Source: Polytrichum commune
Lineage: Eukaryota > Streptophyta > Polytrichopsida > Polytrichales > Polytrichaceae
Assembly: GCA_950295325.1 (NCBI GenBank)
Contig: OX485807.1
Location: forward strand, 46,778,440-46,842,439
Length of the DNA stretch: 64,000 nucleotides
Direction of reading: 5' to 3'
In this document: positions 4,701-61,502 of the stretch, in pieces
How the letters are laid out: each line of letters begins with the position of its first letter
Position numbering within the stretch: position 1 is the first letter of the stretch
Notes under the pieces: model-generated
Seen by the model: the letters and a program-made list of their open reading frames with translations, nothing else
Database searches by the model: none
What the model was told of the DNA's origin: nothing
Made by a program: the position numbers and the translations under genes

Positions 4701-4954
4701 GATGAAACGGGACAGTACCCAATCCGATCCAACAACCAAATTTGATTGCAAATTAAGTTGGATATACACCTGAAGATAAAACCGAGCTACCTTTGACGCG
4801 AAGGCCGAGGGATTTATGTGTCACGAGTAGCAATGAGGAGGTTCGCGTCCCCAGGCATGGGGGCACCAGCTGGAAAGATTTTGAGATCTGCCTTGTCTGA
4901 GGAGCGAGCTGAGCTTTAGAAGGCTCTACAGTTTAAGTAATTAGTCTACGGGCG

Positions 4955-4983
4955 CTGGCTGGCTGGCTGGCTGTCTGTCTGCC
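4955..4983. repeat. GGCT/GTCT microsatellite
   Basis: Tetranucleotide tract of GGCT units passing into GTCT units. Confidence 0.8.
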
Positions 4984-7900
4984 TACAATATATTTGGTGT
5001 GTACTCCCGGCGGACTTACAGAGGCCTACTGGGAGCCTACCCGAGCTCGAGTGGTTACCCACCTACGGGCATGAAGGGAAGGTCCCGTACTTGAACACTG
5101 ACCCCGCTTCCCTCATTAATAAACCCATGGAGGCCGTGAATGAGGTCTCTGCTATTGCCTTCTTCGTCTTCTTCTTCTTCTTCTTCTTTGTTGCTGAGAC
5201 GAGCGAGAGTCCACTAAGCTTAACTTGTAACCTTAGCCCTAGTCGTGAGATCCCGCCCACCTAGCCTAGTTAATAAGCGTGTAGCCTGGTGGCTGGCTGC
5301 AGCGAAATGATCCCTCTGCGCACAAGGTGTACTTCTGCTGCGATTACAAACTTCTAGATCTGGGACATAGGACAGCTCTGGGAGTCTGGAGTCTGAAGTC
5401 TGGCCCTCCTGTGCCTGCTGTTTGTCTTCCCACGACAGTGGTGTAAAAGCCAATTTGCTTTTGCTATTTCCTGTAATGTTTATGGGCGATCCGAGGATTC
5501 GGTTGCGGAACAGCAATAATGGGCTTCCAAGTTGTTAGTGGCTGGCAATGATAAGTTACTCGGCGCAGAGAAAGATGCCCGTGGTTTATGAGGAGGAAGC
5601 TGAAGAAACTGGGACATGCCCTGCAGGCTCCCTACCATGGTTAACCAGATTATAATCATATATGCTGTCTAAATTTGGTCTGGATGTAAACAGATTAGAG
5701 CACTGCCTTGATATAAGATCCACTAAGGGGTGTTACTTGTGTTTGTATCTCTGCTCCCTCTCAATACACACAGCCCCCTTAGAAACCTAAATTTCATCGA
5801 TTAATTGAATATTTTTTTGCTAGCACATATTGGACACGAGGAAACAAATAAAACCAACCATGGTTCCCAGTCATGTGTGAATTTAACTTTTAGTTAGACT
5901 TTACAAATGATGAGCTCAATCTTTACCTGCCGCAGTGGAGGTTTATATTAATATGATATATATAAGAAGCTGCAGGCGGAGTTAATATGCCACAAGGTCA
6001 CAGGTAGCGTGTTGAATTATACCACATACATAGCGCCATGCCAATCCAGAGAATGTTAGTAGGTGGGTGTTGTTGGGGTGCTCCCTTGGAGCTATAATGA
6101 TGGATCTGGACTTGCGCCCCCTCCAATCTCGAGTCACAAAAAGAAAAAAGAAATTTTAGTCAAATGTTCATCTGGGCCTCCATATCATGGCCACCGGCCA
6201 GCAGCTCAGTCTACAGTTCTGCTCATCTTGACTTTGTAATATTGTTGGAGCGGCCTGCACCTGCATGCAGTCCCTGTTCCTCAGCCGGTTGGTCGGTAGC
6301 TACCAACATAAATATTGTTTTCAAGACGACCCACATTGCCAATTAAACAAGTTATTTTTTTTACCATATTAATGCATCATCATATTGCATTTGCAATGCA
6401 AGTTTTACACCGACCCTCAGGCCATTAGTTGAGCATGCTGACACAAGTACTCCTTCCTCGCCAGCGGAACTACACTCTTGCAGAGGCAACCCACCATAAC
6501 TGCGGAGGGGCTAAAATCTGTTAACTTATGTGGTTGATTCCCTGCATTCCCACTGCCAAGAGGTGACCACAAGATCCAGCATCGAGCATCATGGCAGGCT
6601 TCCACACTTTCAAAATGAATAAGACTAATTACTTCGTCTCCGACCTAACTTGCTTATGAACCAATTAACGGACAAACAAACAGCCACTCCTAGGAGCCTG
6701 CAGATGGATGGATAGATAGATAATTAAATCTGGTTGACTTCTGACATCACCGGATTTAAGAAAGAGCAATTGAGTGCCATCTTCACTCTGCGGAAGAATA
6801 ACTTATGTCAAGCTGCCATAACTTGGGGGTGGTGTTGTCCTACTAGCAAGCAGGATGAAGTAGTAAATCTTCCCAGCGACTTACGTTTTGTTTTCGAAAA
6901 TTCTGGCCGATTGTGGAGGCTGGGAGTGATGAGTAGTAGCTCAATCCTAGATTTAAATTTATTTCCATTGGAAGAGGAGATAGCGTTGACTGATTCCGCT
7001 TGACTCCTGTATCATCATTCCAGGAGAGTTGGCAGTGTGCCTTTGTCGCAATGGTCATTACAGCCAGCTTGTTTGCAGCAGCATCTGTCTGGAGGTTGGT
7101 TCGAGGACCAATCTATGCTGCTCGCTCGACTGACTTTGAATCATCATTTTCAATACATGTACTAATGCATATTCCACATGCAGAAATTGAAGTTCAACTC
7201 GCTCGGCATTGCAACTGTACAAGAAATGGAGACACGAAAGTAAGACAAAAACAAGATAAACTGGTGAAGACCTTTAACGGCGAACTGACGCGACACGTTT
7301 CTAATCTCTATCACAGTGCATACCTTCCTCCTCCTTGACTCAAGAAAGTAAGATGATTAGGTCAAGGGAGGGGAGGGGAGGGAAGGGGTTAACATTCAAT
7401 GCTCACGAATGACAACTGCAGTTCTGGGGCAGCCGGGGATTTTAATGACCTGCCATCATTGTCGTGGATTCCATCCAATCTAGACAAGAACTGAAAGCTT
7501 GTCATTGCCGCGAATGAATTACTCATCCCTCAGATAGAGTTTATTAATCTTCGAGGGGCCGTACATAAGATTCCTGAGCTTCACTCAGACAACAGCTATG
7601 GCAGCAGCATTGGAACTAATTAACAAATTCTACAGGAGCAGCTGAATCAGGAGCCTCAATTAAGAGTCGAGATGAGTCGAGTATGAAGTTGAGATTGTGC
7701 AAGCATCCGAGGGGAAAGAAGAGTTGCAATGGACATTAGACTTTACCAACTTGCATTGCAGATTATAGTGCACAAACTGTGTCAGGTTGATCCTCCTCTA
7801 CTTGGAACTTGCATATATAATTAGAGTATTGCTCTGCCCAGCAGCCCTGAAGTAGTAGTAGTAGTCATCCGGTGGCAGCTAGCTTCTTCTTCTTCTTCGT

Positions 7901-8495: not shown

Positions 8496-9480
8496 TCAAG
8501 GCATGAAGAGGCGGTTGCCGCACTTGCACCTCCATACCTCAGGGTAATATTCTTGCTGCGTCAATGCACCGTGCGGGCTCCCAATGGACACATGGATAGG
8601 GCTGCATGGGTTACATGTGCCGCATTTTCCTTGGCAGGTTGGCGGTGACGACCCCACCAACAACCTGTGACCGTAAATTGATTCCTCCGGCTTCATGTGA
8701 TGATGCACCTTGAAGCCGCGTAGGGTCTTTCTATGCGGGGGGGGTGGTGGTGGTGGACTCAAAGCCTGCAACATCGCCATTACGTGACACGGTGAGACAC
8801 AGATAGGTTACGTCGACGCAGCAAAGCAAGAATGCCCGAAATTGGCAGGGAGTCTCCCGTGTTCTGAGTCTCAAGATGAATTACACCAATGATTTGCGAA
8901 GTCGAATCTCTCTCTCTATTATAATAGCACCCACAATTATTAGGCCATGGTGAATCTCGAAGATGAAAACATCCTGTAAGCTCGTCTAATTAGTCTCTAG
9001 AAAGCAACTTAGCATGTGAAAGGGGTAGCTATTTGCAGCCGATAGATAGCCAAGTTCGAAGTTGTGCCAATCACCTGGTGATACTGTTGTCGACCACCTC
9101 CAGCTCCCAATGTCCCTCCGACAGCTGAGCCTTCTCCTCCGGCTGCAACAGTAACCGAAAGCTGAGCCTCCGGAGACCTTATCGAGTTCGCTGCTGGAGG
9201 GGGTCCAGCTGAGATCATACAGCACGAAGATGATAATGTTGTCAGTGCATGAAATTCTCAACCAAAACTAGTCTCTGAAATACTTATGAAAGACTCTCGA
9301 GCTTCAGGAAAGCAGCAAACATCATCAGAGCAGGAATGAGGTGGAGATCTAGAATTACAAAGGAACTCGCAGGTGCATGAATTTACCAGGCCGTATATGT
9401 CGACCAGCTTCAACTGCGGCAAGGGGCATCAATGTGAGGAGTAGTACTGCCCAGCAGACGAAACTTGCCATGCTCGACAT
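8496..9480 (-). CDS. EPFL: EPF/EPFL family secreted cysteine-rich signalling peptide, three exons
   Basis: Predicted 165-residue precursor read from three minus-strand exons: 9387-9480, 9075-9208 and 8496-8765. Introns are 178 and 309 bases, both GT-AG, in phase 1 and phase 0. Exon 1 begins MSSMASFVCWAVLLLTLM and gives a clear secretion signal ending near AAVEAG, residue 26. Residues 27-108 are a variable propeptide (Gly-rich, then seven prolines). The C-terminal about 55 residues are the mature EPF-like domain: LLVGSSPPTC, then PTCQGKCGTCNPC with the family spacing C-x3-C-x2-C-x2-C, a loop of about 25 residues, and YYPEVWRCKCGNRLFMP with the last Cys pair. That gives six cysteines. EPF/EPFL peptides are apoplastic ligands of ERECTA-family kinases and TMM, controlling stomatal patterning or growth. 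The CKCGN ending resembles EPFL rather than EPF1/EPF2 members; the exact subgroup is not resolved. The start is the first ATG of the signal peptide; a second ATG lies three codons later. No gene is visible close by on either side. Confidence 0.87.
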
Positions 9481-15591: not shown

Positions 15592-17047
15592 TAAGAATAC
15601 GTAAACAAAGTATATTGGGGGTTTGCAAATAAAGTGCCTACATTCAAATGCATGTACTAATGAGGCATGGTTTGTCCTTGCACTTTACCGAGTACTCCCG
15701 AGATGAAACACACTACAAAAGGCTTTTCCCATTCTATGATACTTCAAAAGTGGTTTCTCCTCACATATCATGCATGTCCTTAAGTTCAAGCAACAATCCC
15801 AAACTCTTGTGGTCCTATCATCGTATGTGCCTCACCTCACCTTGTATTTCATGTCCCCACACCAACCGGCACTTGCAAGGCATACAATTGTCGTGTGTCA
15901 TAGCGGGAGCTTTGAGTGCAAACACACTTTCACATTGAACTAGAGCTGAAGACCCAAAGTCCTTTCTCCCAGCCAACAATGTCATGCTATCTAAGGATTG
16001 CAATCTTATCATTGTCTCAAATGCGCCAAACTTGAACTTTTTCATGACTTTTAGATCTTTTTATCGCACCTCTAATTACCGCAACAAGTTACATGTGGAC
16101 ATCTTTAAAGTTTTCTTGCTACATTGAGGGATATTCTAGAAATTCTTATAAATGGATACGATCAATGTAAAGTCCTTCTCTACTCTCTTAAATTGGAATT
16201 ATTACACCCTAAGCTTCTTGTCTTCAATGTTTTTGCAAGTATTTCAATATCGTCAATTCATTTTGATCTACACATGACATAATTTAGCAACGCTAGCAAA
16301 TTTTCTTTTCATCATCTAAACAAATGTAGTTTTCTACTAAGATTGAAATCTACTAAATGTTTTGCTTGAAGGCAAAAAAAAGGAGTAAAATTCAACTTCT
16401 CAAAAAGGTTCACTTATGCGGACATATACACACCACGATTCCACCGCACAACTGTTGTCATCCAGAAATCATCAAGTTTGATTCTTCTTCATCATCTTCT
16501 TAAAGCCCACATTGAATGCCCTGGTTGCCCAAATGCCTCCTTCCTACATCCAAAGCTTCCATAGCTTCACTTAACCCAAAATCAAGATGATCTAGTTGCC
16601 TACCCACTAGAGAACCTAACCAATTTTTATCATCTCCGAAGTTTTGTAGATTCATAACCGTGACATTCTCCCCACCACCTTCTTCGAAATCTTCGTTATT
16701 TGCTTCATGTTGGGGTCTTGCACCAAGGTACTCTACAACATGTTTCTCAACTTCTTGAACTCCCCGATCGTACATATTAAGCTTTGCGTATGTGTGCAAC
16801 TTTAGAAGATTATCCATGTCCCATGTATGAAATCATCAATTTCAATAATACAATGTTGCACGTTGTGCTATTGGGGACATTCACGGTTGAGGTACTACTT
16901 TTGGGACAAAGGACTTAAGGACTTTGTCGCATTGATCTTGGTTTTTATCATGATTTACTATTATTTGATCAATAAATTTTACATAAATAAGTAGATAGTT
17001 CATAAGCTTTATCAAGAAATATTATTATTATTATTATTTAATAATCA
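15592..17047. other. AT-rich intergenic DNA
   Basis: An open frame of 105 codons on the minus strand (16500-16817) is acidic and Gly-rich but has no motif I recognise; it could be a fragment of a transposon protein. A tract of ATT units lies at about 17019-17040. Nothing else is seen. Confidence 0.35.
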
Positions 17048-17073
17048 CCCTAAACCCTAAACCCTAAACCCTA
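17048..17073. repeat. Interstitial telomere-like repeat
   Basis: Three CCCTAAA units plus CCCTA, the plant (Arabidopsis-type) telomere unit read on the C-rich strand. Confidence 0.8.
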
Positions 17074-51269: not shown

Positions 51270-51864
51270 ATGTCAGGAAACACCAAGGATTTGGATGCCA
51301 GGGCTGCCGCCGGTGAGACGGTGGTGGAAGGAGGCACAGGAGGCAAGAGCCTGCAGGCTCAACAGAATCTCGCCGAGGGTCAGCATTTAACTCCCTTTTA
51401 TCATGTGGCTTTCATTCGGTCATGTAAATTATATTCTAATGAGTGGGAATGTGGGGGGATGTATTGCACCACCCTGTAAATTAGTGTGTGTTTGATTCTC
51501 AATGTTGCAGTTTACAATGTAGGTATCTACTATATTCGTGTCTGAGGGAGGATGACGGCTCCCATGACAAAGTATTGGTTGGCTGGTAGCAGAGAAAAAT
51601 TGATGTGGCATGATCACGAATTTCGCTTTCGGCAATTTGATAAGATACAGTGGCATTTTCTTGCTGGTGATGATTTGCGGTATGACATGTGTCACTTGTG
51701 TCGCAGGGCGAAGCAAGGGCGGACAGGCACGCGCTGAGCAGCTTGGCCATGATGGGTACGTGGAAATGGGCAAGAAGGGTGGATCTGCGACCAACGAGCA
51801 ATCTGGCGGTGATGCAGCTGCCGCTGCTGGTCGTGGAATCGACGAGTCGAAGTTCACCAATTAG
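51270..51864 (+). CDS. EM: Em-like LEA group 1 protein, copy 1 (two exons)
   Basis: Predicted 88 residues from exons 51270-51378 and 51707-51864 with a 328-base GT-AG intron, phase 1, splitting the Gly of AEG/RSKGG. The N-terminal part has [16 protein letters not shown]; the second exon carries one copy of the group 1 motif, [20 protein letters not shown], followed by [12 protein letters not shown] and the family ending DESKFTN. Em proteins are small, very hydrophilic and unstructured in water, and protect cells during drying; they are normally induced by ABA in embryos or desiccating tissue. Start chosen at MSGNTKD because all copies begin there; an in-frame ATG 15 bases upstream lies in the leader. 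It shares a 27-base 3' UTR motif with copies 2 and 4. Confidence 0.93.
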
Positions 51865-55851: not shown

Positions 55852-56409
55852 ATGTCAGGAAATACCAAGGATTTGAATGCGAAGGCCGCCGCTGGCGAGA
55901 CGGTGGTGGAGGGAGGCACGGGCGGCAAGAACATGCAGGCTCAACAGAATCTCGCTGAGGTTCATTTGATGGGGTTCATTTCGTTCCCGTAACTTATGGT
56001 GATGTTTTAATGTGATTTCGGAAGATGAGTAAAAATGTGGTTTGTGCGTGATTCTCAATGCTGTAGGCTGCAATGCATGTCTCTGGAATATGTGGAATTG
56101 AGTGAAGAATGCCTTTTTGGTTGGTTGAAAGATGTGAAAAGTCTGACGTAGGATGGAATGTTGCCGATTGCCTAATTTGATGAGATGCATCGGTACGTCC
56201 TTGCTTGTGGTGTTTTGCGGTATAAACTTGGGGTGACATTTTGTGGCGCAGGGCGAAGCTAGGGCAGACAGGCACGCGCCGAGCAGCTTGGCCATGATGG
56301 GTACGTGGAAATGGGCAAGAAGGGTAGATCTGCTACCAACGAGCAGTCTTGCGGTGATGCAACCGTAGCTGTTGGTCACGAAATCGACGAGTCGAAGTTT
56401 ACCAATTAG
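55852..56409 (+). pseudogene. EM: Em-like LEA gene, copy 2, disabled
   Basis: Exon 1 (55852-55959) is intact in sequence ([19 protein letters not shown]...). At the exon end one G is missing compared with the other copies (CTGAGGTTC against CGAGGGT), which shifts the splice phase. Exon 2 from 56252 has TAG at 56260-56262 where the others have the Lys of RSKGG. Later changes include Gly to Arg and Gly to Cys (MGKKGRSATNEQSCGD). The end DESKFTN and the 3' UTR motif remain. Its promoter lacks the ABRE because of the rearrangement just upstream. All three points indicate a pseudogene. Confidence 0.85.
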
Positions 56410-58340: not shown

Positions 58341-58804
58341 ATGTCAGGAAACACCGAGGATTTGAATGCAAGGGCCGCCGCCGGCGAGACCGTGGTGGAG
58401 GGAGGCACAGGCGGCAAGAGCCTGCAGGCCCAACAGAATCTCGCCGAGGGTGGGTTTTATCACTTAGTCTCTCCTTGTGAATGTTCGAAAAAATTACCTA
58501 CATTGTTTGAAGAATGTGGGGGTTTGTTCTGTTGTTATGTGATATATGATTAATGTTCATGGTCATTCGTTGTTTTGTTTTCTAAGCATGCGGTGTTAGA
58601 AGTTTGGCATGATTGATATGAGTGTTTGCATTCGATTGTGCAGGGCGAAGCAAGGGTGGGCAGGCACGCGCCGAGCAGCTCGGGCATGAGGGGTATGTGG
58701 AAATGGGCAAGAAGGGTGGATCTGCCACCAACGAGCAGTCTGGAGGCGATGCAGCAGCAGCTGCGGGTCGTGAAATTGACGAGTCCAAGTTCACTAACAA
58801 TTAG
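58341..58804 (+). CDS. EM: Em-like LEA group 1 protein, copy 3 (two exons)
   Basis: Predicted 89 residues from exons 58341-58449 and 58644-58804; the intron is 194 bases, GT-AG, phase 1 at the same Gly codon as copy 1. Differences from copy 1 include MSGNTEDLN at the start, LGHEGY in the group 1 motif, GREIDESKF and one extra Asn at the end (FTNN). All family landmarks are present and the frame is open. A possible AATAAA signal lies at 58924-58929. Its promoter has ABRE, CACATG and TATA in the same order as copy 1. Confidence 0.93.
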
Positions 58805-60907: not shown

Positions 60908-61502
60908 ATGTCAGGCAAGACTGAAGATCTTGATACCCGGGCCGCTGCGGGCGAGACCGTGGTGGAGGGAGGAACTGGTGGGAAGAGCCTCCAGGCCCAG
61001 AAGAACCTTGCTGAGGGTAAGTGTACAACCTCGGTCACCAATTAATCGTGTGGTGATTATTAGAGGCTGCAGCTCGTAGCATCGAGGAATCATTGCAAGA
61101 GAAGCCTCATGAGTGCATCCCGATCGAGTGCCTTGTATTGCATTATGTGCATTGAAACACTCGAGTTGGCTATAATCGTGTATCGTATGCAATGTGCATT
61201 GCGTCTCCCGGTCGAGTATCTTCTAATCCATCGTGTGCAGTGCAACATTTGAGTGTTTAGCTATGATCGAGTCATTGGATGGTCTGAAGGTATAATATTT
61301 TGTAATGATACTTTGGTGGCTGACATTTGTGGATTTCTGTGCAGGGCGCAGCAAGGGTGGGCAGACACGAGCTGAGCAGCTTGGGCACGATGGGTACGTG
61401 GAAATGGGCAAGAAGGGTGGATCTGCTACCAGCGAGCAATCTGGCGGTGATGCAGCGGCAGCTGCGGGTCGTGAGATTGACGAGTCCAAGTTCACCAACT
61501 AA
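60908..61502 (+). CDS. EM: Em-like LEA group 1 protein, copy 4 (two exons)
   Basis: Predicted 88 residues from exons 60908-61016 and 61345-61502. The 328-base intron has the strongest donor of the cluster, GTAAGT, and lies at the same phase-1 Gly codon. Protein landmarks: [37 protein letters not shown], the group 1 motif [32 protein letters not shown] and DESKFTN. It differs from the others by Lys for Asn at position 4, Lys-Asn in the AQKN stretch and Thr in GGQTR, and its flanks are the most diverged, so it is probably the oldest duplicate or the founding copy. An in-frame upstream ATG at 60854 lies in the leader; the MSGK start is chosen by comparison. Confidence 0.93.

Follow-up and report, generated by a model that had tools for sequence, protein, structure and literature searches.

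The 64,000-nucleotide stretch of Polytrichum commune DNA examined in this study (hereafter the window; contig OX485807.1) contains an intact three-exon EPF-like gene, which is predicted from its sequence to encode a small secreted signalling peptide (Table 1). The first-pass annotation had proposed three minus-strand exons with matching splice phases, and the exact coordinates, GT-AG borders and a 498-nt joined frame without inner stop confirm this proposal. The frame specifies a preproprotein of 165 residues plus stop (MSSMASFVCWAVLLLTLMPLAAVEAGRHIRPAGPPPAANSIRSPEAQLSVTVAAGGEGSAVGGTLGAGGGRQQYHQALSPPPPPPPHRKTLRGFKVHHHMKPEESIYGHRLLVGSSPPTCQGKCGTCNPCSPIHVSIGSPHGALTQQEYYPEVWRCKCGNRLFMP), in which a hydrophobic signal peptide is followed by a propeptide of low complexity and then by a full six-cysteine EPF domain ending WRCKCGNRLFMP. 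Joining exons by eye according to their splice phases can bring to light a small gene for a secreted peptide that no long frame marks.

Table 1. Features of the EPF-like gene in window positions (a slash marks a splice border; L005 and L006 are the paralogues at C2:6.55 and C2:57.12 Mb)
Feature	Position	Length	Strand	Content and basis
Exon 1, coding part	9387-9480	94 nt	-	ATG, signal peptide MSSMASFVCWAVLLLTLMPLAAVEA, propeptide start GRHIRP; ends in phase 1; donor CTG/GTAAAT. Basis: open joined frame; equivalent exon with same phase in L005; similar signal-peptide exon ending CTG/GTAA in L006
Predicted signal peptide, residues 1-25	9406-9480		-	Hydrophobicity; putative cleavage after VEA by the -3/-1 rule
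Intron 1	9209-9386	178 nt	-	GT-AG, phase 1; CTG/GTAAAT ... CTCAG/CTGG
Exon 2, propeptide	9075-9208	134 nt	-	AGPPPAANSIRSPEAQLSVTVAAGGEGSAVGGTLGAGGGRQQYHQ; borders and phases match exon 2 of L005
Intron 2	8766-9074	309 nt	-	GT-AG, phase 0; CAG/GTGATT ... TTGCAG/GCTT
Exon 3, propeptide end and complete EPF domain	8496-8765	270 nt including stop (8496-8498)	-	PF17181; 5xkn_E EPFL4
Mature-type EPFL domain, six Cys	8499-8654	52 aa	-	GSSPPTC...GNRLFMP; alignment with EPFL4, EPF1, EPF2 and paralogues; putative N-terminus

Exon 3 matched the Pfam EPF family (PF17181) with 78.4 bits and an E-value of 3.9e-22 (cut-off 27), the sole Pfam match of this exon and one far beyond chance. The complete six-cysteine EPF-like domain with its WRCKCGN ending, as first read from the sequence, is therefore present, and the absence of any EPF-like match, which had been named as grounds for abandoning that reading, was not observed. 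The signal peptide, called from hydrophobicity and comparison with paralogues, has a core with a mean Kyte-Doolittle value of 2.58 over 12 residues, compared to 2.66 and 2.83 in two paralogues, and both paralogues have a similar signal-peptide exon, in line with the signal peptide and propeptide previously claimed. An AlphaFold2 model (mean pLDDT 73.8, pTM 0.50), built from an alignment of four sequences, the EPF-family members of this genome, places strands at residues 18-23 and 39-45 in a strand-loop-strand scaffold, so that the peptide is predicted, with moderate confidence, to adopt the antiparallel-strand scaffold with a loop found in the EPF/EPFL family. The best structural matches of the model in the PDB were EPF1 in the ERL1-TMM complex (TM 0.73 by target), followed by Stomagen, with weak Foldseek E-values (0.052 and 2.1) that are attributable to the small size of the domain and the four sequences aligned.

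The genome comprises 408 Mb in 64 contigs, and all matches reported here fell on the seven large ones (C1-C7), which suggests seven chromosomes; both this number and the genome size would suit a moss. In a six-frame search of the 408 Mb, the EPF profile matched four places: the present gene, which was the second strongest match, and loci at C2:6.55, C2:57.12 and C6:28.60 Mb. The present gene and the two C2 loci are EPFL4-type, giving three EPFL4-6-like genes in the genome. The C6 gene (locus L007) carries eight cysteines, and its matches are to EPF1 (2e-12) and EPF2 (7.3e-10). The Stomagen profile (PF16851) did not have the EPFL locus among its matches, and none of its matches in the genome reached the cut-off. 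Having an EPF1/EPF2-type gene but no Stomagen is in keeping with a moss or hornwort (PMC3670920, PMC8075897).

When exon 3 was compared to all PDB sequences, only two chains were retrieved at E <= 0.001, namely EPFL4 (5xkn_E; 5.6e-19) and EPF1 (3.9e-4). The mature domain shares all six scaffold cysteines (C7, C11, C14, C17, C43 and C45) with EPFL4, EPF1 and EPF2; it has no cysteine between C17 and C43, and so lacks the additional pair of loop cysteines by which EPF1 and EPF2, and the EPF1-EPF2-EPFL7 clade, are recognised. A tree had been suggested as the means of assigning the subgroup, and this was accomplished in part: with seven rows and 53 columns, a 100/100 split separated the gene and EPFL4 from EPF1 and EPF2, the only references, so that EPFL4 is the sole anchor of its clade and placement within EPFL1-8 is single-anchored (EPFL1-3 and 5-8 were not among the references). 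In published trees, moss EPFLs fall in the EPFL4-6-EPFL8 clade, while EPFL1-3 are confined to vascular plants (PMC3670920). Taken together, the sequence comparisons support membership in the EPFL4-6(-8), or CHALLAH-like, subgroup and neither EPF1/EPF2 nor Stomagen; the gene would therefore be more relevant to ERECTA-mediated growth signalling than to the direct repression of stomata.

The closest known counterpart is Arabidopsis EPFL4 (CHALLAH-LIKE2; PDB 5xkn chain E), which is 68% identical over the mature domain and shares the pattern GSSPPTC..KCG.C.PC.P.HV...EYYPE.WRCKCGN.LFMP with six cysteines at the same places. However, the loop of the present peptide is two residues longer (GSPHGALTQQ versus QPGLSMPL in EPFL4), and the propeptides are unrelated in sequence. 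Genes of this kind have already been described in other non-vascular plants. The CHALLAH-like PpEPFL genes of Physcomitrium patens, also a moss, belong to the same clade (a comparison made by published trees rather than by sequence), but number nine (PMC5047656, PMC3670920) rather than the three found here. Similarly, the hornwort Anthoceros has a separate EPF gene and a gametophyte-expressed gene of the EPFL4-6 clade, but only one of the latter per genome (PMC8075897). The present study adds to this small non-vascular set a well-formed EPFL4-6-type ligand with a complete exon model and two paralogues, in support of the published conclusion that the EPFL4-6 line had diverged from the EPF1/EPF2 line by the time vascular plants appeared.

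Components of the pathway in which such a ligand might act were also found in the genome. ERECTA-family kinase loci were located at C5:20.15, C3:16.38, C1:46.22 and C7:10.05 Mb, their best exons being 62-73% identical to the ERECTA kinase, and the C5 locus, the one examined, has ERECTA-like LRR exons upstream. An SMF-type bHLH gene, with an intron inside the bHLH, lies at C3:28.70 Mb. The queries for TMM, ERECTA and FAMA were approximate sequences of the Arabidopsis proteins. Whole-genome searches with the full-length Arabidopsis TMM, its N- and C-terminal parts and its N-terminal half yielded only generic LRR matches and no convincing TMM; as they scored the best candidates only and had no positive control for TMM, they do not prove its absence. 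None of six loci that were read was a TMM, and the one at C4:12.18 Mb is an LRR receptor kinase. Since the same approach recovered SMF and ERECTA at 62-78% identity, a conserved TMM should have appeared. Some mosses, including Atrichum, Pogonatum and Tetraphis, have no stomata (PMC7270291), which makes the loss of TMM possible.

These observations bear on whether the gene could instead encode an EPF1/EPF2-type peptide that represses stomata in the sporophyte epidermis via ERECTA and TMM. EPF1/EPF2 and PpEPF1 share family and fold with the present gene, and both SMF and EPF-type genes occur in the genome. However, those peptides have eight cysteines, act on stomata with TMM and are only 34-36% identical to the present one, which has six cysteines and lacks the extra loop pair; its match to EPF1 is 15 orders of magnitude weaker than that to EPFL4, the EPF1/EPF2 slot is already filled by the separate eight-cysteine gene at C6:28.6 Mb, and TMM was not found in the genome searches. 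Such a role therefore appears improbable, and the EPFL4-6(-8) assignment is preferred.

It is also conceivable that the EPFL identity is right but that the N-terminal exons are wrong, with another transcription start or another signal-peptide exon being used, as the low complexity of exon 2 puts it beyond test by database search and the gene model is a prediction. Against this stands the paralogue at C2:6.55 Mb (L005), a minus-strand gene for a protein of 145 residues. Its three exons are separated by introns of 281 and 680 nt whose phases equal those of the present gene, and its exon 2 (AAPPSTSS...DWRQFQ) has its start and its RQ-xxQ/gt end in common with the present gene, with like borders and phases. 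Its exons 1 and 2 are recognisably similar, the signal-peptide exon being 61% identical over residues 4-29. Because this diverged paralogue lies on another chromosome and has an identical three-part structure and phases, the exon joins are independently supported. In addition, the paralogue at C2:57.12 Mb (L006) likewise begins with a similar signal-peptide exon and shares the donor CTG/GTAA, although a simple splice scan did not reveal a middle exon in this paralogue. Misassigned N-terminal exons are thus highly improbable. Over the last 61 codons, the present gene and L005 differ by a pS of 0.80, which is saturated, and a dN of only 0.047 (Nei-Gojobori, own script), indicating that the copies are old and that the peptide is under strong purifying selection. 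That the gene is a decaying, non-working duplicate whose frame is intact by luck, as might be imagined where one of three related copies could be redundant, is scarcely credible given this disparity, the intact splice borders and the lack of an inner stop.

The gene therefore very probably encodes a secreted EPFL4-6(-8)/CHALLAH-like peptide hormone, which would bind ERECTA-family kinases and control growth in a paracrine manner, and we infer its secretion, processing, disulphides, receptor binding and biological output as follows. The N-terminal signal peptide would take the 165-residue preproprotein into the secretory route, where a protease may remove the proline- and glycine-rich propeptide near RLLVGSSPP. 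The resulting peptide of approximately 52 residues would fold into a two-stranded scaffold with three disulphide bonds, with specificity residing in the loop, and would spread through the cell wall to adjacent cells. There it may be bound by the ERECTA-family LRR receptor kinases encoded in the same genome, and a MAPK cascade would then regulate growth or cell division. Judging from Arabidopsis EPFL4/6, TMM is probably not needed. In that plant, EPFL4 and EPFL6 signal through ERECTA independently of TMM, and their binding to ERL1 is tighter without TMM than with it, while EPF1 and EPF2 require TMM (PMC8133662); this independence makes paracrine signalling of growth to ERECTA-family kinases the most likely role. 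The hornwort EPFL4-6-clade gene is expressed in the gametophyte (PMC8075897), which by analogy would fit a role outside stomata, and the nine CHALLAH-like genes of Physcomitrium are reported to be upregulated in the developing sporophyte (PMC5047656).

Whether the putative absence of TMM has wider consequences can be addressed only tentatively. In Arabidopsis, TMM serves as a filter that prevents EPFL4/6 activity in stomatal cells. The genome described here has SMF, ERECTA-family kinases, one EPF1/EPF2-type and three EPFL4-6-type peptides and no TMM that was detected, and EPFL-ERECTA signalling might run without an Arabidopsis-style filter, which would fit a moss that has lost its stomata, although we regard this as rather doubtful. 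If the absence is real, the species would offer a natural test genome for EPFL-ERECTA signalling without TMM.

Several minor features were also recorded. At C6:28.596 Mb, the EPF1/EPF2-type gene is followed, from approximately 40 bp past its stop codon, by a minisatellite (L007 positions 4843-5893) with a 75-bp period and approximately 14 copies, which perhaps lies in the 3' untranslated region of the gene. Beside two of the EPF-family genes, on different chromosomes, are stretches of DNA approximately 74-78% alike (L005 8113-8908 and L007 8303-8652), probably a dispersed repeat. The EPF-like gene had been described as the only developmental signalling gene in the window; in a sample of ten of the larger open frames there, a Pfam scan gave one match, LEA_5 (PF00477), which is Em, a group-1 LEA of a desiccation-related family. 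It forms a tandem array on the plus strand (51279-51855, 55861-56400, 58347-58792 and 60917-61493), with a further copy just past the window; each copy is split over two exons, and the one at 56257-56400 has an inner TAG. More LEA_5 arrays occur at C1:75.78 and C3:57.83 Mb. A segmental duplication shared with C2:6.55 Mb was considered and rejected, as the array has no copy near there and the sole C2 match is at 67.2 Mb. Finally, short internal repeats of ACCCTAA, the plant telomere unit, occur in 3.9 copies at window positions 17047-17073.
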